Part shown: piece by piece, positions 3,882-30,048 of the stretch
How positions within the stretch are numbered: position 1 is the stretch's first letter
Layout of the letters: the number at the start of each line of letters is the position of its first letter
Source of the DNA: Pseudooceanicola onchidii
GTDB taxonomy: Bacteria > Pseudomonadota > Alphaproteobacteria > Rhodobacterales > Rhodobacteraceae
Reading direction: 5' to 3'
Length of the DNA: 64,000 nucleotides
Assembly: GCF_004959925.1 (NCBI RefSeq)
Contig: NZ_SPUW01000003.1
Coordinates: forward strand, 434,001 to 498,000
Notes under the pieces: generated by a model
What the model was told of the DNA's origin: nothing
The model's database searches: none
The model's input: the letters and a program-made list of their open reading frames with translations, nothing else
Program-made: the position numbers and the translations under genes

Positions 3882-3956
3882 CGGTCTGACCGGGGGTCCC
3901 GTACCGGGGCCCTCGGAAGCGTCGGATCAGGGCGTTGCGCGAACAGGGAGGAGTGA

Positions 3957-4004
3957 ATGCGACACACTGGATTTGCCGCATTCGGAACGGGGTTCACGAC
4001 ATGA
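3957..4004 (+). CDS. Possible 15-codon leader peptide upstream of soxE
   Basis: A short frame, MRHTGFAAFGTGFTT, starts 5 bases after a good GGGAGGAG site (3945-3951). Its TGA overlaps the soxE ATG as ATGA. The best ribosome-binding site in this gap belongs to this frame rather than to soxE, so ribosomes may reach soxE by coupled re-initiation. It could also be chance. An alternative reading starts soxE at the GTG at 3953, but its spacing to the ribosome site is too short. Confidence 0.3.
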   Translation: MRHTGFAAFGTGFTT

Positions 4005-4933
4005 GCACCGGGTCAGGCATCATGCTGGCCTTGGGCGGCGCGGCCTTGGTGGTTGGTGTGGCTTACGGTGTAAACACGCGCAGCTATCGTGACGCCGAAC
4101 TGCAGGTCATGACCGATCGGCTGGCCCGGGTCGAGGCCACCAACGCGGCCCTGCGTGCGGAGGCTGCGCAGACAGATGCGCTGACGGCGCGTGTTGCAGA
4201 GCTTGAGGCGGCGCTGACAGATGCGCAACGTCAGCCCGAGGTCAGTGCGGCCGCCGTCGAGGCCCCGCCGACACCACAGATCGACGCGGCGCAGCCCGGC
4301 CTGGGCAACGCGCAGGCCGGGGCGGATGTGTTTCGCAAATGCCAGTCCTGCCATTCCGTGGGCGCCGGGGCCGAGGATCGGGTTGGCCCGCACCTGAACG
4401 GAATCTTCGGGCGCAGGGCGGGGGCACACGCGGGGTTCCGCTATTCCGAGGACATGGCGATGATGGGGGCGGACGGGCTGACCTGGACGCTTGATACGCT
4501 TGACGCCTACCTGGAAAACCCCAAGGCGCTGGTGTCGCGGACGCGGATGAATTTCGCGGGCCTCAAGGCGGCGCAGGACAGGGCCGACGTGCTGGCCTTC
4601 CTGCGGCAGTATTCCGACCGGCCGCAGAACATTCCAGAAGCCGCGCCGACCGCCATGGCGCCCGAGGTCACGCTGTCCGACGACATCCTCGCCATCGTGG
4701 GGGATCCCGAATACGGCGCCTACCTCGCCTCGGAATGCGAAACCTGCCACCAGCGCAGTGGCGCGGACGACGGGATCCCGGCAATCACCGGCTGGCCCGA
4801 GGCGGATTTCGTCGTCGCGATGCATGCCTACAAGCAGAAGATCCGCCCGCATCCGGTCATGCAGATGATGGCCGGGCGGTTGTCGGACGAAGAAATCGCG
4901 GCCTTGGCCGCGTATTTCCGGGGCCTCGACTAG
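4001..4933 (+). CDS. soxE: Diheme c-type cytochrome SoxE
   Basis: SoxE is thought to be the cytochrome partner of the SoxF flavoprotein. The 310-residue product has an N-terminal hydrophobic anchor (about 5-25) that resembles the one in SoxD, a coiled Ala-rich segment, a first haem site CQSCH at 114-118 in a cytochrome c domain (RTRMNFAGL), and a second haem site CETCH at 246-250 in a domain like the FccA cytochrome of sulfide dehydrogenase. The ATG at 4001 overlaps the stop of a short upstream frame and has only a weak GGGG before it. soxF follows 48 bases downstream. Confidence 0.88.
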   Translation: MSTGSGIMLALGGAALVVGVAYGVNTRSYRDAELQVMTDRLARVEATNAALRAEAAQTDALTARVAELEAALTDAQRQPEVSAAAVEAPPTPQIDAAQPGLGNAQAGADVFRKCQSCHSVGAGAEDRVGPHLNGIFGRRAGAHAGFRYSEDMAMMGADGLTWTLDTLDAYLENPKALVSRTRMNFAGLKAAQDRADVLAFLRQYSDRPQNIPEAAPTAMAPEVTLSDDILAIVGDPEYGAYLASECETCHQRSGADDGIPAITGWPEADFVVAMHAYKQKIRPHPVMQMMAGRLSDEEIAALAAYFRGLD

Positions 4934-4981
4934 GGCACCGGGTCAGGGCCCGTCGTGGCCCGCATTCAGGGAGGAAACCCA

Positions 4982-6250
4982 ATGACTTTGAATAGAAGGA
5001 CATTTCTGGGCACCGGCGCGGCCGCGACCGTGGCCCTTTCCGCGCCCCGCGCGATCGGGGCCAGCCACGGACGGCCGCGTGTCGTCGTGGTGGGCGGTGG
5101 TGCAGGGGGCGCGACCGCCGCGCGCTATATCGCCAAGGACAGCCAGGGCGAGATCGACGTGACGCTGATCGAACCTTCGCGCAGCTATTACACCTGCTTC
5201 TTCTCGAACCTCTACATCGGCGGCTTCCGCGACCTGTCGTCGATCGCGCACAGCTACGGCACGCTGGCGTCCGAGTATGGCATCAACGTGGTGCACGATT
5301 GGGCCGTGGGCGTGGACCGCGACGCCAAGACGGTGGCGCTGGCAGGCGGCGGATCTGTGCCCTACGACCGGCTGATCCTGTCGCCGGGGATCGATTTCGT
5401 CGACGGTGCGGTTCCGGGCTGGGACGTGACCACTCAGAACAGGATGCCCCATGCCTACAAGGCCGGGTCGCAGTCCGAACTGCTCAAGGCGCAGATCGAA
5501 GCGATGCCCGAGGGCGGCGTCTTTGCCATGGTCGCCCCGCCCAACCCCTATCGCTGCCCGCCGGGACCGTATGAGCGGGTGTCGATGGTGGCGCATGTGC
5601 TGAAGGAAAAGAACCCGACCGCCAAGATCCTGATCGTCGACCCGAAAGAGAAGTTCTCGAAACAGGGTCTGTTCGAGGAAGGCTGGGCCAAGCACTACTC
5701 CGGCATGATCGACCGCATCGGGCCGGATTTCGGCGGCGACAAGGTGTCGGTCGATGCGGATGCGATGACGGTCACGATCGACGGCGCGGTCGAAAAGGTC
5801 GATGTCTGCAACGTCATTCCGGCGATGAAGGCCGGGTTGATCTGCGAACGCGCCGGGCTGACCGAAGGTAACTGGGCGCCCGTGATCCCCGCCACGATGC
5901 AAAGCCGACTGGACGAAAACATCCACATCCTCGGCGATGCCTCGGCGCAGGGCGACATGCCGAAGTCGGGCTTTTCCGCCAATTCGCAGGCCAAGGTGGC
6001 GGCGATGGCGGTGCGCGGCGCGCTCACCGGGTCCAGGATCTTCCCGGCCAAGTTCTCGAACACCTGCTGGTCGCTGATCGGCACTGACGACGGCGTGAAG
6101 GTCGGCGCGGCCTATGAGGCGACGGACGAAAAAATCGCCTCGGTGTCCAGCTTCGTCAGCCAGACCGGAGAGGACGCGGCCCTGCGCAAGGCGACCTACG
6201 AGGAGTCGATCGGCTGGTACGCCGGGATCACGGCGGACATGTTCGGGTGA
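4982..6250 (+). CDS. soxF: FAD flavoprotein SoxF (flavocytochrome c sulfide dehydrogenase type)
   Basis: SoxF is a periplasmic FAD protein related to FccB; it oxidises sulfide in vitro and speeds thiosulfate oxidation. The 422-residue product has a twin-arginine signal (RRTFLG at residues 5-10), an FAD-binding motif VVGGGAGG near residue 38, and the redox cysteine in the segment YYTCFFSN. The second redox cysteine is in NTCWSLIG. The ATG at 4982 is preceded by GGGAGG at 4969-4974. It closes the visible sox operon; the next gene has its own promoter and palindromic operator. Confidence 0.92.
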   Translation: MTLNRRTFLGTGAAATVALSAPRAIGASHGRPRVVVVGGGAGGATAARYIAKDSQGEIDVTLIEPSRSYYTCFFSNLYIGGFRDLSSIAHSYGTLASEYGINVVHDWAVGVDRDAKTVALAGGGSVPYDRLILSPGIDFVDGAVPGWDVTTQNRMPHAYKAGSQSELLKAQIEAMPEGGVFAMVAPPNPYRCPPGPYERVSMVAHVLKEKNPTAKILIVDPKEKFSKQGLFEEGWAKHYSGMIDRIGPDFGGDKVSVDADAMTVTIDGAVEKVDVCNVIPAMKAGLICERAGLTEGNWAPVIPATMQSRLDENIHILGDASAQGDMPKSGFSANSQAKVAAMAVRGALTGSRIFPAKFSNTCWSLIGTDDGVKVGAAYEATDEKIASVSSFVSQTGEDAALRKATYEESIGWYAGITADMFG

Positions 6251-16325: not shown

Positions 16326-18275
16326 TCAGCGGTTGGCGCGGTTTTCGATCAGCTCGTCCACCACCGATGGATCGGCGAGGGTCGAGGTGTCGCCAAGCGC
16401 GCCATAGTCGTTTTCCGCGATCTTGCGCAGGATGCGGCGCATGATCTTGCCCGACCGGGTCTTGGGCAGGCCGGGGGCCCACTGGATCAGGTCGGGGCTG
16501 GCGATCGGGCCGATCTCGGTCCGGACCCAGGTGCGGAGTTCCTTCTTCAGCTCGTCCGACGGGTCGACCCCGTTCATCAGCGTGACGTAGCAGTAGATGC
16601 CCTGTCCCTTGACCTCGTGCGGGTAGCCGACGACAGCCGCTTCGGCGACCTTGGCGTGGGCGACAAGTGCGGATTCGACCTCGGCCGTGCCCATGCGGTG
16701 GCCCGAGACGTTGATGACGTCATCGACCCGGCCGGTGATCCAGTAGTAGCCGTCCGCGTCGCGGCGGCAGCCGTCACCGGCAAAATAGTAGCCCTTGTAG
16801 TCGCTGAAATAGGTCTTTTCGAACCGGTCGTGATCGCCCCAGACGGTGCGCATCTGGCCGGGCCAGCTGTCCTTGATGGCCAGAACGCCTTCGGCCGTGG
16901 TGTCGTGGATTTCCTCACCCGAGGTCGGTTCCAGCACGACCGGCTGCACGCCGAAGAAAGGCGTGGTGGCCGAGCCGGGCTTGGTGGGCGTCGCGCCGGG
17001 CAGGGGGGTGATCATGTGGCCGCCGGTTTCGGTCTGCCACCAGGTGTCGACGATTGGCAGTTTTCCCTTGCCGATCTTGTCGTTGTACCAGTTCCAGGCC
17101 TCGGGGTTGATCGGTTCGCCCACGGTGCCCAGCACCTTGAGGTCGCTCAGATCCACGCCTTCGACAAAGCTGTCGCCCTGGCCCATCAGGGCCCGGATGG
17201 CGGTCGGGGCGGTGTAGAACTGGTTCACCTTGTGCTTTTCGCAGACCTGCCAGAAGCGCGAAGCGTCTGGGTAGGTCGGCACGCCTTCGAACATCAGCGT
17301 GGTCGCGCCGTTCGCGAGGGGGCCGTAGATGATATAGCTGTGGCCGGTCACCCAGCCCACGTCCGCCGAACACCAGAAGATGTCGCCGTCGTGGTAGTCG
17401 AAGGTGATCTGCTGGGTCATTGCGGCATAGAGCAGGTAACCGCCCGAGGAATGCACCACGCCCTTCGGCTTGCCGGTCGAGCCCGAGGTATAGAGGATGA
17501 ACAGCGGATCCTCGGCGTTGACGGGCACGGCGGGGCAGTCGGCCGAGGCGGCCTCCATCTCGGCCTTGACGTCGACATCGCGGTCCTCGACCCAGGTGGT
17601 CTGGTCGCCGGTATGCTTGACCACCAGGCATTTCACGCTGTCCTTGCAGTGCAGCAGGGCCGCGTCGGCATTGGATTTCAGCGCGGTGCGACGGCCGCCA
17701 CGGGGGGCGGTGTCTGCGGTGATGACGCATTTGGCGTCGCAGTCGTTGATCCGGTTGGCCAGCGCGTCAGGGCTGAAGCCCGCGAAGACGACCGAATGGA
17801 TCGCGCCGATGCGGGCGCAGGCCAGCATGGCATAGGCGGCTTCGGGGATCATCGGCAGGTAGATGATGACCCGGTCACCTTTGCCGACGCCATGGGCCTT
17901 GTAGACATTGGCCAGGCGGCTGACCTTGTCGTGCAGCTGGGCATAGGTGATGTGCTGCGCCGGGTCCTTGGGATCGTCCGGTTCGAAGATGATCGCGGTC
18001 TGGTCGCCGCGCGTGTCCAGGTGGCGGTCGATACAGTTGGCCGCGACGTTCAGCTCTCCGTCCTCGAACCACTTGATCGCGACCTGGCCCAGGGTGAAAT
18101 CGGTGTTCTTCACGCGTGTGAAGGGCGTGCTCCAGTCCAGACGCTTGCGCGCCTCGTCTGCCCAGAAGCTGTCCGGGTCGGCGACAGAGGCCTTGTACAT
18201 CGCATCGTATTTCGCCGCATCCACATGGGCGTTCGACACCATGTCGGCAGAGGGCGGATAGGTCTGATCGGTCAT
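16326..18275 (-). CDS. acs: Acetyl-CoA synthetase (AMP-forming)
   Basis: Acs activates acetate with ATP and CoA; close relatives also use propionate. The 649-residue protein has the family length. It carries the P-loop-like [20 protein letters not shown], the [18 protein letters not shown] motif and the C-terminal acetylation-site segment [16 protein letters not shown]. The ATG is preceded by AAGGAG at proper spacing. It is the last gene of a series that starts with a Liv-type binding protein, with a 222-base gap and a strong hairpin before it. It may have its own promoter as well. Confidence 0.96.
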
Positions 18276-18450
18276 GATCACTCCTTCGGTACTGGAACAT
18301 CCGATGGCCGTGCGGGCCAGCGGGTCGTCGATGGCAGGGGCGGTGGCGTGGCGGGCCGAGACCCGGGTCCGGCTGGCGTCGTCCGGCCCCTCCTTCGGGA
18401 CGTCGCCAGGGTATTGGTTGGCCCAGCTATCGGAAATCACTGGGTTTCCT

Positions 18451-18482
18451 GCAAGGGCGACAAAGGTCGTGGTCGCCCTTGC
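18451..18482. repeat. Hairpin between livF-like gene and acs
   Basis: A perfect 11-bp inverted repeat (GCAAGGGCGAC/GTCGCCCTTGC) with a 10-base loop starts about 16 bases after the stop of the ABC ATPase gene. There is no T-run on the minus strand. It may stabilise the upstream mRNA or partly stop transcription before acs. Confidence 0.6.
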
Positions 18483-18497
18483 GGGGATCGAAGCCGA

Positions 18498-19253
18498 TCA
18501 GATGGCCAGATATTCGGCGCGCAGCTCGGCGTTGCCAAGCACTTCCTTCGCAGAGCCGTCAAAGACCACCGACCCGGTGTCCAGGATCACCGACCGGTCG
18601 GCCAGTTCCAGCGCGCGCACGGCGTTCTGTTCCACCAGGATCGTGGTGATGCCCTGTTCCTTGATGATGCGCAGCGTCTTCTCGATCTCGTCGACGATGA
18701 CGGGGGCAAGGCCCTCATAGGGTTCGTCCAGCAGCAGCACCTTGATGTCGCGCGACAGGGCGCGGGCGATGGCCAGCATCTGCTGTTCCCCGCCCGACAG
18801 CGTGACGCCTTCCTGCTGGCGGCGTTCGCCGAGGCGCGGGAAGAGTTCATAGAGACGATCGAGCGACCAGCCGATCGGCGGGGCGATCTGGGCCAGCTTG
18901 ATGTTCTCTTCGACCGTGAGGCCGGGGATGATGCAGCGATCCTCGGGCACAAGGCCGATCCCGGCCTGCGCGGCCTCGTGGCTTTTCATCTTGTGCAGCG
19001 GCTGGTGGTCCAGCCAGATCTCGCCATGGGTGACCTGCGGATCGTCCATCCGCGCGATCGACCGCAGGGTCGAGGTCTTGCCGGCGCCGTTCCGGCCCAG
19101 CAGCGCCAGGATCTCGCCCTCGTGCACGTTGAAGCTGATGTTCTGCACGATGTAGCTTTCGCCGTAATAGGCCTCCATGTTCCAGACGGACAGGAAGGCC
19201 GGGGCGGTTTCGGCAAAGTTGTGGCCCTTGGAGAAGTCGGGTTTGACGTTCAT
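18498..19253 (-). CDS. Liv-type ABC transporter ATP-binding protein (LivF-like)
   Basis: This is one of two ATPases of a branched-chain-amino-acid-type (HAAT) importer. The 251-residue product has Walker A (LGRNGAGKTS), signature TLSGGEQQMLAIARAL and Walker B LLLDEPYEGLAP, and is of the short LivF type. It carries about 20 extra residues at the N-terminus before VWNMEAYYGESYIV. The genes run binding protein, two permeases, LivG, LivF, acs. The true substrate is unknown; association with acs and an ScfR-type regulator suggests a short carboxylic acid rather than leucine. Confidence 0.9.
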   Translation of the reverse strand: MNVKPDFSKGHNFAETAPAFLSVWNMEAYYGESYIVQNISFNVHEGEILALLGRNGAGKTSTLRSIARMDDPQVTHGEIWLDHQPLHKMKSHEAAQAGIGLVPEDRCIIPGLTVEENIKLAQIAPPIGWSLDRLYELFPRLGERRQQEGVTLSGGEQQMLAIARALSRDIKVLLLDEPYEGLAPVIVDEIEKTLRIIKEQGITTILVEQNAVRALELADRSVILDTGSVVFDGSAKEVLGNAELRAEYLAI

Positions 19254-19277
19254 GGTAACGGTCCTTTTTCCGGGAGC

Positions 19278-19334
19278 GGCGGGGTGAACCCCGCCCTACG
19301 GGTGGTGTTGGCGTAGGGCGGGGTTCACCCCGCC
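19278..19334. repeat. REP-like 23-bp perfect inverted repeat
   Basis: Arms 19278-19300 and 19312-19334 are perfectly complementary over 23 bases around an 11-base spacer. The core reads GTAGGGCGGGGTTCACCCCG. It lies in the gap between the two ABC ATPase genes. A similar GGCGGGGTTCACCCCGCC sequence is, to my knowledge, common between genes in Rhodobacteraceae. It lacks a T-run, so a REP-like or mRNA-protecting element fits better than a terminator. Confidence 0.75.
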
Positions 19335-19344
19335 ACAGCCCGTG

Positions 19345-20109
19345 TCACGCAGCGACCTGGGTTTCACCAAGATACGCTTCGCGCACCTTCGGGTGGCCCT
19401 TGATGTTTTCCGGCGTGTCCTCGACCAGGGGCGTGCCCTGCGCCAGCACCGTGATCCGTTCCGCCAAGGAGAAGACGACGTGCATGTCGTGTTCGATGAT
19501 CGCGATGGTGATGTCGCGTTCGTCCTTGATCTTCTTGAGCAGATCGATGGTGTTGTTGGTGTCGGCACGCGCCATGCCCGCAGTCGGTTCGTCCAGCAGA
19601 AGCAGGCGCGGCTCCTGCGCCAGACACATGGCGATTTCCATCCGGCGTTTGTCGCCGCGCGACATGGAAGCCGTATGCATCTCGCGCTTGTCGGCCAGGT
19701 TCATGCTTTCCAGCATGTGCTCGGCTTTGTCGACGACCTCTTTCTCCTTCATCATGTTGCCGATGGCTTGCAGGGTGAAGGCGCCGTCGCGCTTTGCAAA
19801 GCAGGCGATCATCATGTTTTCCATGACGGTCAGGTCGCCGAAGATCTCGGGCGTCTGGAACACCCGCGAAATCCCCATTTGGTTGATCTCATAGGCGTTG
19901 CGGCCCAGCACCGACTGGCCGTCGAACATGACCGACCCGGTGTCGGGGATCAGCTTGCCGACCAGGCAGTTCAGCAGCGTCGACTTGCCCGCGCCGTTCG
20001 GCCCGATGATCGCGTGGACCGAGTTTTCCTCGACGCTCAGGTTGACCTCGGACAGGGCCTTGAGGCCACCGAACCGCTTGTTGACGTTCTTGACTTCGAG
20101 AATTCCCAT
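19345..20109 (-). CDS. Liv-type ABC transporter ATP-binding protein (LivG-like)
   Basis: The second ATPase of the importer, 254 residues, has Walker A IGPNGAGKST near residue 35, a signature segment SMSRGDKRRMEIAMCLA, Walker B LLLDEPTAGMA and the LivG-type C-terminus (VVFSLAERITVLAQG). The signature reads SRGDKR in place of the usual SGGxQR, a noticeable departure also seen in some urea-type relatives. It overlaps nothing and lies 11 bases after the permease gene. Confidence 0.9.
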   Translation of the reverse strand: MGILEVKNVNKRFGGLKALSEVNLSVEENSVHAIIGPNGAGKSTLLNCLVGKLIPDTGSVMFDGQSVLGRNAYEINQMGISRVFQTPEIFGDLTVMENMMIACFAKRDGAFTLQAIGNMMKEKEVVDKAEHMLESMNLADKREMHTASMSRGDKRRMEIAMCLAQEPRLLLLDEPTAGMARADTNNTIDLLKKIKDERDITIAIIEHDMHVVFSLAERITVLAQGTPLVEDTPENIKGHPKVREAYLGETQVAA

Positions 20110-20120
20110 TGCTCCAGTCC

Positions 20121-21317
20121 TTATTCCGCAGGTTCGGTCTTGGTCTGCGTCTGGGCGCGCTTGCGCCCGAACAGACCGGTGAGTTTCTGGCCGCCCTCAA
20201 CCAGCCCGCCGGGCAGGAAGATGATGACCAGCATGAACAGCAGGCCCTGGGTCATGTGCCAGCCTTCGCCGGTGAACCAGGTGGCCACCCAGACGACCGC
20301 GTGCTGCAGCCAGTCGGGCAGGAAGGCGAACCAGGAGTCCAGCAGGCTTTCGTTCATCTTGGAGATGATGTTTTCCATGTACTTGATGGTGCCTGCGCCC
20401 AGGATCGGGCCGATCAGGGTGCCGACGCCGCCGAGGATGGTCATGATCACCACCGCGCCGGATTCGGTCCAGTACATCCGCTCGGCGCCTGCCAGCGGGT
20501 CCATCGCCGCCAGCAGACCGCCCGCGAGACCCGCGTACATGCCCGAGATGACGAAGGCGGCCAGCGTGTAGGGCTTGGCGTTCAGGCCGGTGTACATCAT
20601 CCGCGTCTGGTTCGACTTGATCGCGCGCAGCATCAGGCCGAAGGGCGAGCGGAAGATGCGGATCGACAGGTAGAAGGCCAGGATCAGCAGGATCGCACAC
20701 AGGTAGTAGCCGACCGGGAAAGTGAAGTTCCACGGGCCAAGCGCCAGGTCGACCTTCGAGCGCATCTCGAGCCCGAAGAGGTGCGGCACGTTCGGTCCGT
20801 TGCCCAGCAGGATCTGCGGATCGTCGTTGTAGATCTGCAGGCCGGTTTCGCCGTTGGTGATGGTGGTGCCCAGCCAGCGGCCCAGAAGGTCCGAATAGGC
20901 GATGGCGTACATCATCTGCGCGAAGGCCAGCGTCAGGATCGAGAAGTAGATCCCCGACCGGCGCAGAGAGATATAGCCGATCAGCACCGACAGCAGGCCC
21001 GCGGCGATCACCGACAGCACCAGGCCCGGCAGGATGTTGAAGTTCAGCAGTTTGAACATCCACACCGCCGCATAGGATCCGACACCCAGAAAGGCAGCGT
21101 GACCGAAGGACAGGTACCCGGTCAGGCCAAACAGGATGTTGAAGCCGATGGCGAAGATGCCGAAGATGGCAAACCGCTGCATCAGGTCGGGATAGCCGCC
21201 GTTGAAGAAGGCCATGCCGGAGTTGGTCGGGAAGAGGTTGAGGATGAAGGGTGCAAACAGCGCCAGCACCACCACGACGAGCAGGAGCCCGGTGTCTTTC
21301 TTATCGAGACCCAGCAT
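20121..21317 (-). CDS. Liv-type ABC transporter permease (LivM-like)
   Basis: The 398-residue integral membrane protein is of the LivM type, with about nine hydrophobic segments and the family motif [20 protein letters not shown] near residue 70. A long polar insertion lies between about residues 145 and 190. The C-terminus is charged. It is 3 bases downstream of the LivH-like gene, so the two are coupled. Confidence 0.9.
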
Positions 21318-21320
21318 GAG

Positions 21321-22352
21321 TTAGTCCTCCATCACGCCTTTTTTGCCCATCAGGCCGCGCGGGCGGGTGAGCAGAATGATAATTGCAACGAGGTAGATGA
21401 TGATCTGGTCGATCCCGTCGAGCACCTCTTTCACCGCTGTCATCGAGGCGAAGCTTTCCAGGATACCCAGCAGGAAGCCCGCGGCGACCGCTCCGGGCAG
21501 GGAGCCCATTCCGCCGACGACGACCACGACGAAGGACAGCACAAGGAAGTCCATGCCCATGTGATAGTTCGGCGCGTTGATCGGTGCGTACATCACGCCC
21601 GCCCAGCCCGCGACAACGGCGGCGATGGCGAACATGATGGTGAAGCGGCGGTCGATGTTGATGCCCAGAAGGCCCACGGTGGCGCGGTCTGCCATTCCGG
21701 CGCGGACGACCATGCCGAAGGTGGTGAACTGCAGGAAGGCAAAGACACCGCCGATGACCACGGCTGAGAAGAAGAAGTAGATCATCCGCCAGTAGGGATA
21801 GATGATGACGTTCGGGTCAAAGCCGAAGGCCGCGCCGAAATCGACCGATCCCTTGAAGGCGTCGGGGGCGGGGGTCTGGATCGGGTTGGCACCGTAGATG
21901 CCGCGCACCAGTTCCTGCAGGATGATCGCCAGACCGAAGGTCACGAGGATCTGGTCAGCGTGCGGACGCTTGTAGAAGTGCTTGATCAGCCCGCGTTCCA
22001 TGACCAGACCCACCACGATCATGATCGGGATGGAAAAGAGGATGGCGAGCGGCACGGACCAGTCGATGATCGCGCCGCCCACCTCGGGACCGAACCAGGA
22101 TTCGACGTAGGGCGTTTCCACCTTGAGAGGGTTGCCCAGGAAGTCCTTCTGGGTCGGGTCTTCGGTCACGTAGCTGACCGACAGCAGCTTGGACAGCGCC
22201 ACCGAACAGAAGGCGCCGATCATGAACAGCGCGCCATGGGCGAAGTTGACCACGCCGAGCGTGCCGAAGATCAGTGTCAGGCCAAGGGCGATCAGCGCAT
22301 AGGCCGATCCCTTGTCCAGGCCGTTCAGAATTTGTGGAATGATGACGTCCAT
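21321..22352 (-). CDS. Liv-type ABC transporter permease (LivH-like)
   Basis: The 343-residue permease begins MDVIIPQILNGLDKGSAYAL and has the LivH hallmark GTLGVVNFAHGALFMIGAF. About eight membrane segments are visible, and a hydrophilic insertion (about 55-95) is longer than in E. coli LivH. The ATG at 22352 follows GAGGGACGGG. It is separated from the binding-protein gene by a hairpin-rich gap, typical where the binding protein is made in excess. Confidence 0.9.
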   Translation of the reverse strand: MDVIIPQILNGLDKGSAYALIALGLTLIFGTLGVVNFAHGALFMIGAFCSVALSKLLSVSYVTEDPTQKDFLGNPLKVETPYVESWFGPEVGGAIIDWSVPLAILFSIPIMIVVGLVMERGLIKHFYKRPHADQILVTFGLAIILQELVRGIYGANPIQTPAPDAFKGSVDFGAAFGFDPNVIIYPYWRMIYFFFSAVVIGGVFAFLQFTTFGMVVRAGMADRATVGLLGINIDRRFTIMFAIAAVVAGWAGVMYAPINAPNYHMGMDFLVLSFVVVVVGGMGSLPGAVAAGFLLGILESFASMTAVKEVLDGIDQIIIYLVAIIILLTRPRGLMGKKGVMED

Positions 22353-22384
22353 GTCCCGTCCCTCTGGATGAGAAAAGCCAAGGC

Positions 22385-22459
22385 GCGTGCATGGCACGCA
22401 CCCTGCCGGTCCCCTTGGGGACCAGGGTGTCGATGTGGGGTGCGCGACGTGCACGCACC
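22385..22459. repeat. Hairpin-rich gap between binding-protein and permease genes
   Basis: Three structures lie in tandem: GCGTGC-N3-GCACGC (22385-22399), a GGTCCCC-TT-GGGGACC stem (22408-22423) extended by flanking ACCCT/AGGGT, and GGGGTGCG/CGCACCCC with a 9-base loop (about 22437-22461). The first shares its core with 13410-13426. Such arrays usually protect the upstream binding-protein mRNA from 3' decay. Confidence 0.6.
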
Positions 22460-22473
22460 CCAGGTGTCATGGC

Positions 22474-23817
22474 TTAGGCGCCCGGGTTGCATTCACCCAG
22501 ATCGCCGCCGGCGAACATCGGGTGATCCGGTGCGTATTCGACCTGCGCGCGCGGAGTGACTTCGACGATTTCCAGCGTGTCGTACTGGTTCGTCGGGTTT
22601 TCCTTGCCGCGCATGACCAGCACGTCCTTGAAGCACTGGTGGTCGGCGCCGCGATAGGTGGTCGGGCCGTTGCCCATGCCGTCGAATTCGAAGTCCTCGA
22701 GGGCTTCGGCCACGGCGCAGGGGTTGAAGGACCCGGCACGTTCCACGGCGTCTGCGTAAAGCAGGGTCTGCACATAGCAGGTGTGCGCCGAGTTCGACGG
22801 CGGACGGCCGTACTTTTCACCGAAGGACTTGGTGAAGGCCTTGGAGCCCTCGTCCTGCAGCTGCCAGTTCCAGTTCATCGACCCGATGACGCCCTGCACG
22901 TTTTCACCTGCACCGGCGGCCATCAGTTCCGAATACAGCGGAACGACGATCTCGAACTTCTTGCCGTTGACCATCTTGTCCAGCAGGCCGAACTGAACGG
23001 CGTTGGTGAGCGAGTTCACCATGTTTCCGCCGTAGTGGTTCAGGACCAGCACGTCTGCGCCGGAGTTCAGGACCGGCGTGATGTAGGACGAGAAGTCCGT
23101 GGAGGCGAGCGGCGTCAGCACGTTGTTGACGGTTTCCCAGCCCATGGCCTCGGTGGCGGCTGCCATCGATTCCTGCTGCGTCCAGCCCCAGGTGTAGTCG
23201 GCGGTCAGGTGATAGGCGCGACGGTCCTTGCCGTATTCCTTCGCCAGCACCGGTGCGAGTGCTGCACCCGACATGTAGGCGTTGAAGAAGTGACGGAACC
23301 CGTTGGCCTTCTTGTCCTTGCCGGTGGTGTCGTTCGAGTGGGTCAGACCGGCCATGAAGATCACGCCGGCTTCCTGGCAGAGGCCCTGAACAGCCACGGC
23401 CACGCCCGAGGACGAGCCGCCGTTGATCATGACCGCGCCGTCTTTTTCGATCATCGACTTCGCGGATGCGCGGGCGGCGTCGGATTTGGTCTGGGTGTCA
23501 CCGGTGACGTACTTCACCTGCTTGCCCATGATGCCGTTCCCTTTCAGCGCCTTTGAGCTGAAGGTGTTCATCATGCCGCCATCGCCTTCACCGTTCAGGT
23601 GCTGGACGGCAAGTTCCTGCGCGCGCAGTTCGTCAAGGCCTTCCTCTGCGTAGGGGCCGGTCTGCGGCACGTTGAAGCCAAGCGTGACAGTGCTGCCCGT
23701 CGGTTCGTTTGTGAAGGCCGCCGCGGAAGACGCGGTGAAGATCGTGGGCAATGCAACACCGGCGCCGGCTACGGCACCTGTTTTCAGCACGCCACGACGC
23801 GACAGAGTCTTGGTCAT
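22474..23817 (-). CDS. Tat-exported substrate-binding protein of the Liv-type ABC transporter
   Basis: The 447-residue periplasmic protein begins with a twin-arginine signal (SRRGVLKTG) and has the type I binding-protein fold (LGFNVPQTGPYAEEG; VMINGGSSSGVAVAVQGLCQ). Tat export of such a protein is less usual and is seen in the urea/amide (FmdD/UrtA) branch. The ligand cannot be read from sequence. It is the first gene of the transporter set that ends with acs, and diverges from the ScfR-type regulator gene. Confidence 0.88.
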   Translation of the reverse strand: MTKTLSRRGVLKTGAVAGAGVALPTIFTASSAAAFTNEPTGSTVTLGFNVPQTGPYAEEGLDELRAQELAVQHLNGEGDGGMMNTFSSKALKGNGIMGKQVKYVTGDTQTKSDAARASAKSMIEKDGAVMINGGSSSGVAVAVQGLCQEAGVIFMAGLTHSNDTTGKDKKANGFRHFFNAYMSGAALAPVLAKEYGKDRRAYHLTADYTWGWTQQESMAAATEAMGWETVNNVLTPLASTDFSSYITPVLNSGADVLVLNHYGGNMVNSLTNAVQFGLLDKMVNGKKFEIVVPLYSELMAAGAGENVQGVIGSMNWNWQLQDEGSKAFTKSFGEKYGRPPSNSAHTCYVQTLLYADAVERAGSFNPCAVAEALEDFEFDGMGNGPTTYRGADHQCFKDVLVMRGKENPTNQYDTLEIVEVTPRAQVEYAPDHPMFAGGDLGECNPGA

Positions 23818-24038
23818 GAGTTTCCTCCCATATGTATGGATGCGGGGTGCGCGTCTCCTCTAGCGCGCCTCGCAGGCACATGTGTGCAAAGTCACTATCG
23901 CAGAGGGAAAGAAAACAAATCAACAACGGCCTTTAATCGTTAAACTTTTTTGTAAACAAATGCACAATGCCGTGGTATGGGATGTAAAGAAATTATTTCG
24001 CACTGCAGAAAGCCCTTGAAACGGCGGAGGAATTGGCG
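23818..24038. promoter_or_regulatory. AT-rich divergent control region between transporter and regulator
   Basis: These 221 bases contain the only clearly AT-rich stretch nearby (about 23895-24000). They hold TGTGCAAA (23883-23890) and TTTGTAAA (23949-23956). Each differs at one position from TTTGCAAA, the half-site reported for the ScfR regulator PccR of Rhodobacter sphaeroides. TGTGCA and TGCACA also form an inverted pair around them. The likely user is the regulator encoded at 24039. Confidence 0.5.
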
Positions 24039-25367
24039 ATGGCGCGCAGCTCACTTGCCGGCAGTCGGATCCGCGAAAGGCGGGTGATGCTGGGCCTCAG
24101 GCAGGCAGAACTGGCGCGGAGGGCCGGGATCTCGGCCTCCTACCTCAACCTGATCGAACACAACCGGCGCAGAATCGGCGGAAAACTGCTGCTGGATATC
24201 GCGCAGGTACTGGGGGTCGAGGCCGCGCTGCTGTCGGAGGGGGCCGAGGCCGCGCTGACCGGCACCCTGCGCGAGGCAGCCGCGGACGGGGCCCTGGCCG
24301 CCGCCGAGGTCGAGGCCGTCGATGAATTTGCCGGGCGGTTCCCGGGGTGGGCGCAGCTGCTGTCGACGCAGCACGGCCGGATCGGGCAGCTGGAGCAATC
24401 GGTCGAGGCGCTGACCGACCGGCTGGCCCATGACCCGCATCTGGCCGCGTCGCTGCACGAGGTGCTGTCGACCGTCACCGCCATCCATGCCTCCTCCTCG
24501 ATCCTCGTGGATACGAAAGAGCTTGAGCCCGAATGGCGCGACCGCTTTCACCGCAATATCCACGAAGACAGCGCCCGGCTGGCCGAAGGGGCGCAGCGGC
24601 TGGTGGATGAACTGGACGCCGGGCAGGCCCGCGACGCCACCGTGAACTCTCCGCAAGAGGAGGTGGACGCCTTCCTCGATGCCGCCGGTCATGCCTTTCC
24701 CGACCTGGAACGCGGGGCGGCCCCGGACGCGGTGATCGCGGCCGCAAACCTGACATCGGTCTCGGCGCAGGGGCTGGCGCGCGACCGGCTGGGCCGGATG
24801 GCGGCGGATGTGGCGGCGCTGCCCATGGCGCGGCTTGTCGAAGCGCTGCGCGGGCTGCGCTCCGAGGACAGGGCGGATCCGGTCCGGCTGGCCGCCGCGC
24901 TTGGGCTGGGTGTGGCACTGGTGATGCGGCGGCTGGTGAGCCTGCCGCGCGAGGTGACGGACGATCTGCTGCCCGCCGCGCCGGGGCTGGTGATCGCCGA
25001 TGCTTCGGGCACGTTCCTTTATCGTCGCGACCTGCCGGGGTTTCCGCTGCCCCGGTTCGGCGCGGCCTGTCCGCTGTGGCCGCTGTTCACCGCCCTGCAG
25101 CGACCGATGTACCCGGTGCGGGCGCGGGTGCAGATGGCCGGGCGCAGCGACGGGGTTTTCGACGCCTACGCGATTGCCGAAGCTGATGGCGCGGCGCCGG
25201 GCTGGGACGAGCCTATCCTGCGGACGCACATGCTGCTCTGGCCGGCCGAGGGGGCGGGCGAGGGCGCGAACACCCCGGTGCGCGGTGTGGGCGTGACCTG
25301 CCGCATCTGCCCGCGCGAAGACTGCGCGGCGCGGCGCGAGCCGTCGATCATGGCGCGGGGGGCGTGA
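24039..25367 (+). CDS. XRE-family short-chain fatty acyl-CoA regulator (ScfR/PccR-like)
   Basis: The 442-residue protein has an N-terminal XRE helix-turn-helix (about 9-63: RQAELARRAGISASYLNLIEHNRR). It ends with the ScfR-type C-terminal motif TCRICPREDCAARREP. Members of this family (PccR, RamB, PrpR) sense acyl-CoAs and control acetate or propionate use. The middle part lacks the HExxH of an IrrE-type peptidase domain and contains a helical stretch with HASSSILVDT. The ATG at 24039 has GGAGG at 24026-24030. Its position opposite the acs-linked transporter suggests it controls that operon. Confidence 0.82.
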   Translation: MARSSLAGSRIRERRVMLGLRQAELARRAGISASYLNLIEHNRRRIGGKLLLDIAQVLGVEAALLSEGAEAALTGTLREAAADGALAAAEVEAVDEFAGRFPGWAQLLSTQHGRIGQLEQSVEALTDRLAHDPHLAASLHEVLSTVTAIHASSSILVDTKELEPEWRDRFHRNIHEDSARLAEGAQRLVDELDAGQARDATVNSPQEEVDAFLDAAGHAFPDLERGAAPDAVIAAANLTSVSAQGLARDRLGRMAADVAALPMARLVEALRGLRSEDRADPVRLAAALGLGVALVMRRLVSLPREVTDDLLPAAPGLVIADASGTFLYRRDLPGFPLPRFGAACPLWPLFTALQRPMYPVRARVQMAGRSDGVFDAYAIAEADGAAPGWDEPILRTHMLLWPAEGAGEGANTPVRGVGVTCRICPREDCAARREPSIMARGA

Positions 25368-25449
25368 GTTGTCTTTGACTTGGAAGTTTCAATCGGGCAG
25401 GTTGACCCACCACGGGTAACCGGGGTTTCGTGCCGTAGGGGGAGACGGG

Positions 25450-25818
25450 ATGGACAAGACGGTTCTGGTCATCGAGGACGAACCAAACATCATCGAGGCG
25501 ATCAGCTTTATCCTGTCGCGGGATGGCTGGCGGGTGGCGACCCATTCCAACGGGGTGGATGCCGTGTCGGCGGTCGGCGCGCGCAAGCCCGACCTCGTGA
25601 TTTTGGACGTGATGCTGCCGGGGCGGTCGGGCTATGACATCCTGCGCGACCTGCGGGCCGCGACCGAGACGGCCGATCTGCCGGTGCTGATGCTGACCGC
25701 GCGCGGGCAGACCAAGGACCGCGAGATGGCCGAATCGCTTGGCGCCAGCCGGTTCATGGCCAAGCCCTTCTCGAACTCCGAAGTGCTGGAGGCCGTCCGG
25801 GACCTCGTCCGGCCATGA
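25450..25818 (+). CDS. Single-domain response regulator
   Basis: The 122-residue product is a receiver domain only. The phosphorylation site is Asp53 (VILDVMLPGRSG), with the acidic pair EDE at residues 9-11, the conserved Thr in LMLTARG and the Lys in AKPFS. There is no DNA-binding output domain. Its TGA overlaps the ATG of the next gene, and a symporter-kinase is encoded right after, so it is probably that kinase's partner. Confidence 0.9.
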   Translation: MDKTVLVIEDEPNIIEAISFILSRDGWRVATHSNGVDAVSAVGARKPDLVILDVMLPGRSGYDILRDLRAATETADLPVLMLTARGQTKDREMAESLGASRFMAKPFSNSEVLEAVRDLVRP

Positions 25819-26108
25819 GCGATCTGCGCAATCGCCTGTTCCTGGGGCGCGGCAGTTACCGCCAGCGGCGGCTTGCGGATGCGGCGCGTCTGATGCCGAT
25901 CCTGGGCGGCGTGCTGCTGATGCTGCCACTGCTCTGGCCGCGTCAGGGCATCGGCGAGGCGTCCGAGGTGCCGCCGACCTCCTCTGCGATGATCTATATC
26001 TTCGGGGTCTGGGTGGCGCTGGTGCTGGCCTCTCTCTACCTGTCGCACAACCTGGACCCCACAGAAACAGAGGCGCGGGGGGATGACGACCCGTCGCGGG
26101 GCGGCTGA
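25815..26108 (+). CDS. Small two-helix membrane protein
   Basis: The 97-residue protein has a basic N-terminus and two membrane segments (about 28-42 and 58-78), then an acidic tail. It overlaps the response regulator (ATGA) and shares one base with the kinase ATG, so the three genes are tightly coupled. No family is recognised with confidence. The arrangement recalls the small membrane partners (DUF485/DUF4212) encoded next to acetate symporters, and an accessory subunit of the downstream symporter domain is a reasonable inference. Confidence 0.7.
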   Translation: MSDLRNRLFLGRGSYRQRRLADAARLMPILGGVLLMLPLLWPRQGIGEASEVPPTSSAMIYIFGVWVALVLASLYLSHNLDPTETEARGDDDPSRGG

Positions 26109-28789
26109 TGGCGTCGCTGAACCTGCTGGTCTTCGTCTGCCTGGGCTACGTGGCGGTGCTGTTCCTGGTGGCCTTCGGGGCGGAACGCGCGGCGATGCGG
26201 GGGCAGGCGGCCTGGTTGCGATCCCCCATGGTCTACACGCTGTCGCTGTCGATCTACTGCACGGCCTGGACCTTTTACGGGGCGGTCGGCTATGCGGCGC
26301 GGTCGGGGATGGAGTACCTGACGATCTACATCGGCCCGTCGCTGATGATGATCGGCTGGTTCTGGGCGGTGCGCAAGCTGGTGCGGATCGGGCGCAGCCA
26401 GAACATCACCTCGATCGCCGACCTGATCTCGTCGCGCTATGGCAAGTCGACGCTGCTGGGGGTGCTGGTGACCGGCCTCGCCGTGGTCGGCACGACCCCC
26501 TATATCGCGCTTCAACTTCAGTCCGTAACCCTTTCCGTGGCCAGCTTTTCCGTCGCCGACGCCACGGTGCGCCCGCTGGATGACCAGAACTCTACCGCGC
26601 TGTGGGTGGCCGTGGGGCTGGCGTTCTTCACCGTGCTCTTCGGCACGCGCAACCTGGATGCCAACGAACGCCACCACGGCGTCGTCATGGCCATCGCGGT
26701 CGAGGCGGTGGTGAAGCTTTTTGCACTGCTGGCAGTCGGGGTCTTCGTCGTCTGGGGGATCGGCGGCGGCATCGGGGCCACGATGGACCGGATCGACGCG
26801 TCCTCCCTTGGGGACTGGCAGGTGCAGCCTGACCGCTGGATGGCGCTGTCGGCGCTGTCGGCGGCGGCCTTCCTGTGCCTGCCGCGGATGTTCCAGGTCT
26901 TGGTGGTCGAGAACGAGGACGAACGCCACCTGCGCACCGCCGCCTGGGCCTTCCCGCTGTACCTGCTGGCCATGTCGCTGTTCGTCGTGCCGATCGCGGT
27001 CGTGGGGCTGGACCTGATGCCCGCGGGCACGAACCCCGACCTTTTCGTGCTGTCGGTGCCGCTGGCCGAGGGGCGCAACGGGCTGGCGCTTCTGTCTTTC
27101 CTGGGGGGCTTTTCCTCGGCCACGTCGATGGTCATCGTCGCCTCGATCGCGCTGTCGACCATGGTGTCGAACCACATCGTCATGCCGATCTGGCTGTCGC
27201 GGCAGCAGGCGGGGGCGATGGTGTCTGGCGACGTGCGCAACATCGTCATCCTGTCGCGCCGGTTTTCCATCGTGGGGGTCCTGGCGCTTGGATACCTGTA
27301 TTACCGCATCTCGGGCGGCAGCACGGCGCTGGCGGCGATCGGCCTGATCTCGTTCTCGGGGGTGGCGCAGTTCCTGCCCGCGCTGATCGGCGGCATCTTC
27401 TGGCGCGGCGCGAACCGGGTCGGTGCGCTGGCGGGGCTGGTGACGGGCGGCCTGGTCTGGCTTTGGTGCCTGTTCCTGCCCAGCTTCGGTCCCGACGTGG
27501 TGATCCCTGCGGGCACCATGGCCGAGGGGCCGTTTGGCATGGGGTGGCTGAAGCCCTATGCGCTGTTCGGCATCCCGGGGCTCGACCCGCTGGTGCACGG
27601 GGTCTTCTGGTCGCTGTCGCTGAATGCGTTGGTCTTCGTCACGGCCTCGGTCTTTACCTTCCCGACGCCGCTGGAACGGCTGCAGGGCGCGCAGTTCGTC
27701 AATGTCTTCGACCACACCGCCCCGACGCGGGGCTGGTCCGGGGGGATGGCGCAAAGCGAAGACCTGATGATCATGGCACAGCGCATCCTTGGCGCGACCG
27801 AGGCGCAGGACCTGTTCCGTCGCGCCGCCCTGGACCAGGGGCTTGAGGGGTACCTGCCCGAACCCACACCGGCCTTCCTGCTGCAGCTTGAGCGTGAACT
27901 GGCCGGGTCGGTCGGGGCCGCGACGGCGCATGCGATGATCGCGCAGATCACCGGGGGGGCCAATATCTCGGTCGAGGATCTGCTGGCCGTGGCGGATGAG
28001 ACCGCGCAGATCATGGAACATTCCAGCCAGCTTGAGGCGAAATCAGCCGAGCTGACCCGCACCGCGCGACAGCTTCGCACGGCCAACGAAAAGCTGACCG
28101 CATTGTCGGTGCAGAAGGACGCGTTTCTCAGCCAGATCAGCCATGAATTGCGCACACCCATGACCTCGATCCGGGCGTTTTCGGAAATCCTGCGCGACGC
28201 CGAGGATCTGGAGGGCGAGGCCAAGGCGAAATACGCGGGCATCATCCACGGAGAGGCGATCCGCCTGACGCGACTTCTGGACGATCTGCTGGACCTGTCG
28301 GTTTTGGAAAATGGGCAGGTGCGGATGAATATCGCGCCGGGACGGCTGTCGGATTTCCTGGACCACGCGGTGGCGGCGACGGGGGCCGACCGGGGCAAGC
28401 TGCGCCTGCACCGCGAGGGGCGCGAGGATACGGTTCTGGTGACTGATGGCGACCGGCTGGCGCAGGTCTTCATCAACCTCATCGCGAATGCCCAGAAATA
28501 CTGCGACGCGCCTGAGCCGACGCTGACCATCGGGGCGCGGGCGGTCGACGGGCTGCTGATGATCGATTTCGTCGACAACGGCACCGGGGTCGCGCCGGAT
28601 CAGCAGGACATGATCTTCGAGAAATTCGCTCGCGTCGGCGAACAGCAGGCCGGTGGCGCGGGGCTGGGCCTTGCCATCTGTCGCGAGATCATGGCGCGCC
28701 TGGGCGGGTCGATCACCTATCTGCCGGGACAGCAGGGGGCCGCGTTCCGGGTCACCCTGCCGCTTCGGGATGCAATGGCCGCGCAATAG
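26108..28789 (+). CDS. Sodium/solute symporter-histidine kinase fusion (CrbS/CbrA-like)
   Basis: The 893-residue protein starts with an SLC5-type transporter domain of about 13 membrane segments (1 to about 520). A STAC-like linker follows (about 555-640), then a coiled region and a histidine kinase. The kinase shows the H-box SQISHELRTPM (His679), N-box FINLIANAQKY, and ATP-site segments DNGTGVAPDQ and GGAGLGLAICREIM. Related CrbS kinases control acs in Vibrio and Pseudomonas, and CbrA controls carbon use. Here acs and its linked transporter lie 2-10 kb away. The domain set is clear; the ligand is inferred to be a carboxylate or amino acid. Confidence 0.88.
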   Translation: MASLNLLVFVCLGYVAVLFLVAFGAERAAMRGQAAWLRSPMVYTLSLSIYCTAWTFYGAVGYAARSGMEYLTIYIGPSLMMIGWFWAVRKLVRIGRSQNITSIADLISSRYGKSTLLGVLVTGLAVVGTTPYIALQLQSVTLSVASFSVADATVRPLDDQNSTALWVAVGLAFFTVLFGTRNLDANERHHGVVMAIAVEAVVKLFALLAVGVFVVWGIGGGIGATMDRIDASSLGDWQVQPDRWMALSALSAAAFLCLPRMFQVLVVENEDERHLRTAAWAFPLYLLAMSLFVVPIAVVGLDLMPAGTNPDLFVLSVPLAEGRNGLALLSFLGGFSSATSMVIVASIALSTMVSNHIVMPIWLSRQQAGAMVSGDVRNIVILSRRFSIVGVLALGYLYYRISGGSTALAAIGLISFSGVAQFLPALIGGIFWRGANRVGALAGLVTGGLVWLWCLFLPSFGPDVVIPAGTMAEGPFGMGWLKPYALFGIPGLDPLVHGVFWSLSLNALVFVTASVFTFPTPLERLQGAQFVNVFDHTAPTRGWSGGMAQSEDLMIMAQRILGATEAQDLFRRAALDQGLEGYLPEPTPAFLLQLERELAGSVGAATAHAMIAQITGGANISVEDLLAVADETAQIMEHSSQLEAKSAELTRTARQLRTANEKLTALSVQKDAFLSQISHELRTPMTSIRAFSEILRDAEDLEGEAKAKYAGIIHGEAIRLTRLLDDLLDLSVLENGQVRMNIAPGRLSDFLDHAVAATGADRGKLRLHREGREDTVLVTDGDRLAQVFINLIANAQKYCDAPEPTLTIGARAVDGLLMIDFVDNGTGVAPDQQDMIFEKFARVGEQQAGGAGLGLAICREIMARLGGSITYLPGQQGAAFRVTLPLRDAMAAQ

Positions 28790-28863: not shown

Positions 28864-30048
28864 GTGTCGGAGGCGATGGAAAGCGCTAGCCCAAAATCAA
28901 TCTTGCGCCGCAAGGCAAGCGTGGCGAAGGAGGTCTGGCAGGCACGTGCGATGTCGCCAGCCAAGGCCCTTCGTCTGTCCATTGCCCGCGCCGCAGAGGA
29001 CCTGTGGGATCTTCCCGCGGCGGCCAGCGGAATCTCGGTTTCCGAGGAAACGCTGGACGCGGCGGTCGAGTCGATTCCCGACGGCGGGCTGATCCTTCTG
29101 CTCGAAGGTCCTGAAGGGCTTGTCGGGGCGGCGCATCTGCCGTTTCCCCTGGTGGCGGGATTGGTCGAAGCACAGACGATTGGGCAGGTGGCGGCCAACG
29201 CGCCCGACACCCGGCGCGTGACCCGGACCGACGCCGCCATGGTCGCGCCGCTGATCGACGACATGCTGGAACGGTTCGAGGACCTGCTGGACGAAGGCGG
29301 TATCGCGCCCTGGGCGCGCGGCTTTCGCTTCGGCACGATGATGGACTCGGCGCGGATGCTGTCGCTGGCGCTGAAGGCCACGGATTTCCACGTGATCCGC
29401 TATTCGCTTGACCTGGCCGCGCGCCGCGAGGGCGAGGCGATGATCATGATGCCCGTCGTCGAAGAGGTCGCCATTGGACCGGTGGGCGGCGGCACGGATG
29501 TCTCAGGTGCGCTCGAGCCGCAGATATTGCAGGCCCCGACCGAATTGCGCGCGGTGCTGCATCGCGTGTCGATGCCACTGTCCGCCGTCAGCAAGCTTGA
29601 AGTCGGAGAGGTGCTGACCATCCCGCGGGATGCGCTGGCCCGGACCGAGGTCGAGGTCGGGCCGCAGACGGTGATCGGGACGACGAAACTGGGTCAGGTC
29701 AACGGGATGCGTGCGCTCCGCCTGCATCTGCCCGGCGCCCCCGAGGCGAGGATTGCGCAGATTGCGGGCGATGTCGCGCCGCCCGATGCCCCCGGGGCCG
29801 ATCCTGTCGCGGTTTCCGCCGCTGCAAGACCCGCGCCCGAGCCGGAGCCCGACCCCGCGCCGCTGCCGCAGATCGACATCGGCGCGGTCGGGGCCGAGCC
29901 CGATTTCGCCCCGGCCCCCGTCGAACAGCAGGATGATCTGCTGGGGGACCTGCCGGATCTTGGGGATCTGCCGGGCATGGACGACGACGAGGATGACCTA
30001 CCTGACCTGGGCGCGATGCCTATGGCGACCCTGCCGATCATCGACTGA
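28864..30048 (+). CDS. FliM/FliN-family (SpoA-domain) protein with acidic tail
   Basis: The 394-residue product has a helical N-terminus, a middle domain like FliM, and a SpoA-type domain at about 235-300 (MPLSAVSKLEVGEVLTIPRDAL). A Pro/Ala-rich segment follows, then a strongly acidic tail with DLGDLPGMDDDEDDLPDLG. SpoA domains build the flagellar C-ring or type III secretion sorting platform. No flagellar genes are nearby. The start is the GTG at 28864; an ATG at 28876 has a GGAGG only 2 bases away, which is too close. Confidence 0.75.
   Translation: MSEAMESASPKSILRRKASVAKEVWQARAMSPAKALRLSIARAAEDLWDLPAAASGISVSEETLDAAVESIPDGGLILLLEGPEGLVGAAHLPFPLVAGLVEAQTIGQVAANAPDTRRVTRTDAAMVAPLIDDMLERFEDLLDEGGIAPWARGFRFGTMMDSARMLSLALKATDFHVIRYSLDLAARREGEAMIMMPVVEEVAIGPVGGGTDVSGALEPQILQAPTELRAVLHRVSMPLSAVSKLEVGEVLTIPRDALARTEVEVGPQTVIGTTKLGQVNGMRALRLHLPGAPEARIAQIAGDVAPPDAPGADPVAVSAAARPAPEPEPDPAPLPQIDIGAVGAEPDFAPAPVEQQDDLLGDLPDLGDLPGMDDDEDDLPDLGAMPMATLPIID

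Follow-up and report, generated by a model that had tools for sequence, protein, structure and literature searches.

The 64,000-nucleotide stretch of Pseudooceanicola onchidii DNA analyzed here (contig NZ_SPUW01000003.1, positions 434,001 to 498,000; hereafter the window, to which coordinates refer) comes from a genome of 3.67 Mb in 8 contigs and holds, between positions 16326 and 28789, two divergent gene groups. One encodes a Liv-type ABC importer followed by acs, the gene for acetate–CoA ligase, and the other encodes a regulator of the ScfR family, a stand-alone receiver, a small protein, and a sensor kinase. The DNA between the two groups carries a pair of TTTACA boxes that recurs at the importer promoter of related bacteria and at acs genes located elsewhere in their genomes. 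All the genes named by a first-pass annotation, which had been made from the sequence alone, were found where it had placed them, each with an open reading frame.

On the minus strand, the genes run head to tail from the binding protein through two permeases and two ATPases to acs. The importer operon begins with the binding-protein gene, sbp (22474..23817), whose product is a Peripla_BP_6 protein (PF13458, 239 bits) with a twin-arginine leader; this leader scores 22.5 bits against the Pfam TAT_signal model, slightly below the cutoff of 22.7, and its R7 and R8 are invariant across 33 aligned sequences. The nearest fold to the structure model of the protein (pLDDT 84.1) is 3i09. Next come the permeases of livH type (21321..22352, start ATG checked) and livM type (20121..21317), both PF02653, and the ATPases of livG type (19345..20109, PF00005 and PF12399) and livF type (18498..19253, PF00005). 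A binding protein, two BPD_transp_2 permeases, and two ATPases in one gene run form the composition of a Liv-type (HAAT) importer. The last gene of the run, acs (16326..18275, start ATG checked), encodes an AMP-forming acetate–CoA ligase that passes the TIGR02188 equivalog test with 1012.7 bits against a cutoff of 724.95.

On the plus strand, the regulator (24033..25367, with an alternative ATG at 24039) combines an HTH_3 domain with the C-terminal domain PF09856 (45.6 bits, cutoff 24) that characterizes ScfR proteins. It matches the PrpR structure 6cyy (E 1.3e-9) in an alignment that takes in the C-x2-C-x4-C region, and it scores 104.5 bits against the RamB equivalog NF038139, under the cutoff of 700; thus, by that model it is an ScfR member but not RamB. 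The receiver (25450..25818) matches PF00072 only and has no output domain. It is followed by a protein of 97 residues (25815..26108) that has two hydrophobic stretches (19-residue hydropathy peaks of 1.75 and 2.22) and is CbrX-like by position, and for which the Pfam and NCBIfam profile searches returned no family match. The last gene (26108..28789) encodes a predicted SLC5-STAC-histidine kinase, or transceptor, of 893 residues. The first-pass annotation had described overlapping starts and stops throughout this block, which holds for the receiver and the small protein (4 bases) and for the small protein and the kinase (1 base), whereas scfR and the receiver gene are about 80 bases apart.

In a set of 248 Rhodobacteraceae genomes (247 genera of the family), the binding protein was found in 175 (E ≤ 1e-60; three of the 175 matches are weak). 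Gene neighborhoods were compared in a sample of named loci, the 80 best among at least 583. Among them, livH and livM are present in 80 each, livG in 79, and livF in 78, a count that excludes a 33% match in L046; the missing livF and livG cases are contig ends. Where the locus included 6 kb or more upstream of sbp (75 loci), tblastn (>40 bits) detected scfR in 65, the receiver in 65, the kinase in 64, and the small protein in 56. An acs gene at least 60% identical lies downstream of livF on the same strand in 34 of the 80 loci, and acs follows livF in 25 of 66 when only loci extending 2.5 kb beyond livF are counted; it does not do so in those of Ruegeria, Sulfitobacter, and Leisingera. The closest locus of this best-80 sample is that of Pseudooceanicola batsensis (L085), with 85% identity for the kinase and 87% for acs. 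The first-pass annotation had counted conservation limited to one strain against its own proposal; the comparison found the neighborhood conserved in many genomes, so that objection falls away. Two of the neighborhoods have additional features. In a Hyphomicrobiales metagenome-assembled genome (MAG; L097) without an ScfR match, a distant symporter-kinase (42%) lies downstream of the importer, and in Ruegeria pomeroyi (L078, 15354-20458) the interval from livF to accB holds glycosyltransferase-like, dehydrogenase, acyl-CoA ligase, thiolase-like, and LuxR-like genes, of which the dehydrogenase and the ligase were called by Pfam and the others by eye.

The two TTTACA boxes were revealed by aligning 66 sbp/scfR intergenic regions (65 loci and the window; L075 and L077 were omitted for length). 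In the window, these predicted operator boxes lie on the minus strand, the sense strand of sbp, with box 1 at 23983..23988 and box 2 at 23951..23956, box 1 being 32 bases upstream of box 2. The exact pattern TTTACA-N26-TTTACA, in which the box starts are 32 bases apart, precedes the importer in 50 of the 66 promoters, against a mean of 0.1 and a maximum of 1 for pairs 30-34 apart in 20 rounds of dinucleotide shuffling. The element is found at a median distance of 139 bases upstream of sbp. When a position matrix built only from the 50 exact sbp promoters was applied to the 66 regions, including the 16 not used to build it, no score fell below 19.2. As background, 3693 stretches of 560 bases were drawn at random from the loci after masking of the sbp promoter, and 4 of them reached a score of 15. 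An ScfR box, TTTGCAAA, was tried as a candidate and dropped in favor of the aligned element: both of its exact matches in the window lie outside the interval between sbp and scfR, and a 7-base part of it occurs in 1 of 67 intergenic regions. With one mismatch it has 18 matches in the window versus 9.6 expected; two of these fall in the sbp–scfR interval, and one of the two overlaps box 2. A conserved palindrome, GCAC-N4-GTGC, was also observed at 23876-23887 in the leader of the binding-protein gene and is possibly the site of a second regulator.

The same element was found at acs genes that do not adjoin the importer. The matrix was applied to 30 such acs loci from 29 genomes and, with a cutoff of 15 that was chosen after the first acs scores were known, the element occurs on the acs sense strand in 26 of them. 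Both boxes are exact in 16 of the 26; the box starts are 31 bases apart in 17 cases, 32 in 8, and 33 in 1, and the acs match begins a median of 156 bases away. The four acs genes without it are three from Hoeflea (67% identical) and the second acs copy of one R. pomeroyi strain. In 34 cases in which acs adjoins the importer (the window plus 33 of the 34 loci with an adjacent acs), the gap between livF and acs (50-226 bases) has no element, with a best score of 6.7. Thus, in both arrangements acs seems to be governed by the element, because the distant genes carry it themselves and the adjacent ones follow the importer. The linkage of importer, acs, and ScfR block that the first-pass annotation had proposed is supported by an element shared even where acs is elsewhere, and thereby by evidence independent of gene order. 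Importer and acs look like one regulon, pointing to joint control by a single acid-sensing switch. Two further acs copies were observed: L199 holds a second acs (3243-5378) carrying a two-box element of its own, the first acs of this genome lying behind the importer, and the Hoeflea olei copy (L180) has one in-frame TAA near a contig end.

A scan of 24 genomes for the exact pattern gave 36 places, comprising 22 before sbp (19 placed by tblastn and three by contig coordinates), 9 before acs, 2 before a symporter operon, one of which runs via an adk-like gene, and 3 unassigned. The reversed pattern has 16 places in the same genomes; with about 16 chance places therefore expected overall, what carries weight is where the pattern falls, in front of acs, rather than how often it occurs. 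The R. pomeroyi genomes G248 and G255, the latter taken as strain DSS-3, each contain exactly two exact places, at sbp and at acs. A looser pattern matched 26 of 38 genomes and yielded no recurrent new target. Seven further places from the two scans, in L125, L137, L144, L219, L220, L221, and L218, are unexplained or due to chance; the one in L218 is at a contig end and may precede a second acs.

Which protein recognizes the boxes was approached through the distribution of ScfR, which alone among the proteins of the conserved block has a DNA-binding domain. ScfR sites, as described in PMC10370305, commonly consist of two near-identical boxes. ScfR was searched for in 17 genomes (E 1e-15), six of which, five of Hoeflea and one Hyphomicrobiales MAG, have no match at this threshold; in these six, the element (≥15) is present in 0 of 6 sbp promoters and in 0 of the 3 acs promoters scored. 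In five Ruegeria genomes the importer operon is away from scfR, and at four of these relocated importers the element is still present, with scores of 27.6-36.5. Where acs was retrieved from genomes with a moved importer, it too has the element (three of three). The block of scfR, receiver, small protein, and kinase adjoins accBC in the four Ruegeria scfR loci inspected, and also at other loci where the importer stays in place. Because the element follows ScfR, the sites of ScfR are two-boxed, and no other protein of the block has a DNA-binding domain, we infer that ScfR is the protein that would bind the two TTTACA boxes, and the regulon probably belongs to it.

The kinase at the other end of the block is indeed a symporter-kinase fusion, as read earlier. 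Its SLC5 part is not recognized by the Pfam SSF model; the membrane half matches the PDB chain 10ed_A ("histidine kinase") with an E value of 2.6e-70, or 1.3e-88 by profile over positions 3-613, and the HisKA and HATPase_c domains are present, with no PAS domain found in the Pfam search. The structure model is weak (pTM 0.56), with Foldseek returning kinase cores and human SGLT chains, and the symporter part is therefore identified by the 10ed match; the STAC domain is predicted by homology. 10ed is presumably the CbrA SLC5-STAC structure of the preprint PMC13022988, since Y51, S53, and K196 sit at those numbers in it. According to this preprint, the sodium site of CbrA is occupied by K196, as would fit transport driven by protons, and the carboxylate of the ligand is contacted by S53. 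In the window kinase, K203 aligns with K196 and T52 with S53, and both residues are invariant in 30 aligned orthologs; from this correspondence, a carboxylate is the probable ligand of the sensor, which may also be coupled to protons. None of the proteins in the block is a DNA-binding response regulator. Directly after the kinase gene, a protein with a FliMN_C (SpoA) domain is encoded at 28864-30048, with a match (24-42% identity) in 57 of the 80 named loci; its occurrence in the same gene run as a lone CheY-like receiver upstream is a curious pairing.

Starting from what the computation yielded, namely, the genes, the shared element, how it is oriented and how far it lies from its genes, and the way it accompanies ScfR across the genomes tested, we consider it rather probable that the locus is the core of a Rhodobacterales short-monocarboxylate regulon switched by ScfR via the two boxes. 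ScfR, probably answering to an acyl-CoA, would bind the boxes with their starts 31-32 bases apart, and the bound regulator would switch on, rather than repress, the Liv-type importer, acs and, in some genomes, the VC_2705-type symporter. The importer would bring in a small monocarboxylic acid; acs would be cotranscribed from the importer promoter where it follows livF and would depend on its own boxes elsewhere. The symporter-kinase perhaps tunes ScfR through the lone receiver, for which we propose a contact between receiver and ScfR.

Several observations weigh against this assignment. The fifth moved Ruegeria importer scores only 13.5, and some acs sites are weak (exactly 15.0 in L176; L179 also scores 15.6 on the opposite strand). 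Of the 13 symporters located away from acs, only 5 have the element, in a search that covered at most 1.5 kb upstream, some loci including less upstream DNA, and a diel study reports that acs of R. pomeroyi (SPO1813) is not induced (0.9, n.s.). The RamB site given in PMC10370305 has an 18 bp spacer, unlike the boxes here. The ScfR-less genomes are nearly all from one clade and the moved importers are all from Ruegeria, perhaps reflecting one or two events each. Furthermore, ScfR travels with the receiver and the kinase, and co-occurrence therefore cannot separate it from them. This same fact, the phylogenetic distance of the ScfR-less genomes, and the resemblance of TTTACA to a −35 hexamer would suit boxes that belong to another transcription factor or to the −35 region of a promoter, with ScfR acting otherwise. 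However, a direct repeat of 32 bases is not promoter geometry, and the two-boxed sites of ScfR, its standing as the only DNA-binding-domain protein of the block, the absence of the element in the ScfR-less genomes tested, and its retention in most relocated importers all favor ScfR, so that we regard another owner of the boxes as unlikely.

The cargo of the importer is a separate matter. R. pomeroyi has, at the matching place between accBC and the scfR block, an operon for proteins 69-87% identical in the same order, which should be SPO1017-1021 because it lies about 67 kb and 62 tags before a sulfatase taken as SPO1083. A Liv-type operon of Phaeobacter inhibens has reportedly been assigned to D-lactate by mutant fitness. 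SPO1017-1021 is called a lactic acid (ABC) transporter in two papers, one of which updated its annotations with the mutant phenotypes of Price et al. 2018, among other sources. The earlier claim that the imported acid is the one activated by Acs is not supported by this naming. The names in R. pomeroyi that refer to acetate are those of SPO1810 ("acetate, putative") and SPO2963, and one paper ranks acetate among transporters with experimentally verified substrates. Coculture is reported to raise SPO1017-1021 (3.6-6.6 fold) and the symporter SPO1810 (2.9 fold), among many other genes. A distance of about 0.86 Mb separates the importer from acs in the genome taken as DSS-3, where acs is accompanied by a symporter of the VC_2705 family (TIGR03648, 819 bits); downstream of acs, adk and the gene for a small symporter subunit were recognized by eye. 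The naming would fit a pure D-/L-lactate importer, with acs co-induced since both acids signal fermentation products outside. However, no lactate enzyme gene was noticed by eye among the listings of nine unusual neighborhoods, which also counts against the cargo we favor, and the partners acs and symporter point at least equally to acids that need CoA activation; the probability of this strict version falls a little short of even.

A dedicated importer of acetate or propionate, the acid that Acs activates, at least in genomes like that of the window that have no SSF symporter, would instead explain why acs lies within the importer operon or is marked by the same element, and it would agree with the window genome having no SSF match even at E 10. 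It would also agree with the way importer and symporters avoid each other, which is as expected if their substrates overlap. Importer and VC_2705-type symporter occur together in 64 of the 248 genomes, the importer only in 108, the symporter only in 50, and neither in 26, a negative association (odds ratio 0.31, p 5e-5, among the matches listed and with kinship ignored) for which the weak importer matches of G085, G159, and G184 were counted as absent. For any SSF, the corresponding numbers are 73/99/52/24 (odds ratio 0.34, p 2e-4, kinship likewise ignored). However, this association takes no account of descent, the symporter type was assigned by us among the matches listed, and the R. pomeroyi operon is named for lactic acid while other loci are named for acetate. 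The idea that acs joins the importer upon loss of an SSF symporter was rejected (13/9/18/10 of 50 genomes, p 0.77), acs adjacency being unrelated to symporter presence. An acetate importer is thus less likely than one for lactate, and a dedicated acetate or propionate importer seems improbable to us. Still less probable is a ligand that is not an acid, such as urea, an amide, or an amino acid, with acs coregulated under general carbon limitation. The nearest NCBIfam profiles are those of urea UrtA-E, none of the urea and Liv equivalog profiles reaching its cutoff, and the near folds include UrtA and AmiC. However, these folds also include binders of aromatic acids and amino acids, binding proteins of this class look alike whatever the ligand, and R. 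pomeroyi has a separate operon named as a urea transporter, SPO1707-1710; the nearest chains, 3i09, 4maa, and 3n0w, have titles naming no ligand. With the R. pomeroyi naming weighed against the importer–symporter avoidance, and with near folds that point to no single ligand, lactate is held to be the most likely cargo and the best single guess, at roughly even probability, with acetate doubtful and another small monocarboxylate possible.

A bolder and unlikely extension of the ScfR-switched regulon is that the kinase reads the outside acid and passes the signal through the receiver to an ScfR that reads the acyl-CoA. Outside acid and inside acyl-CoA would then have to agree, as in an AND switch, before importer and acs are made, and the importer would be the main high-affinity uptake route for acetate and similar acids in genomes without an SSF symporter.

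Short acids are part of the carbon passed from algae to marine bacteria, and many of their transporters have been assigned by homology alone. The linked importer and acs are found in a large group of mostly marine bacteria, and an element that marks the importer, the acetate enzyme, and sometimes the symporter offers a direct way to define the regulon across much of the order and makes substrate and regulator testable with simple mutants. If true, the proposal adds another wiring of an SLC5-STAC kinase, one in which no DNA-binding response regulator lies next to it. Within the open-licence literature searched, neither an element shared by importer, acs, and symporter nor the pairing of a transceptor kinase, a lone receiver, and ScfR was found described, and both appear new in that scope.

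Parts of the arrangement have counterparts in known systems. R. pomeroyi SPO1017-1021 has the same gene order as the window importer, without acs beside it. CrbR is a response regulator of the LuxR type. The CrbS/CrbR system of Vibrio and Pseudomonas is likewise reported as an SLC5-STAC-kinase system, and it controls acs; the window differs in the addition of ScfR and an ABC importer and in a receiver without an output domain, the one beside the kinase having PF00072 only, with no search made for a CrbR at other places in the genome. CbrX-CbrA of Pseudomonas is similar in its SLC5-STAC homology and in an overlapping two-helix protein before the kinase, to which the small protein of the window corresponds in place and form; CbrX co-purifies with CbrA and is dispensable for growth on histidine, as stated in PMC13022988. 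The window kinase keeps the proton-site Lys and the carboxylate-side Ser/Thr of CbrA, whereas its neighbors do not point to histidine use and the block has no CbrB-like regulator. In Sinorhizobium fredii, the SLC5-STAC kinase of RpuS/RpuR is reported to regulate a monocarboxylate (pyruvate) transporter via an imperfect direct repeat; unlike in the window, the response regulator is annotated as a transcription factor and the target is a symporter. With PccR, RamB, and MccR/PrpR of the ScfR family, the window regulator has in common the HTH and the PF09856 C-terminus, and its predicted element resembles the two-box logic of the RamB site, with a different box and spacing (PMC10370305). Unlike these relatives, it is linked to a two-component block; one possible relative is Pden_1785, which according to PMC10370305 clusters with a two-component system.

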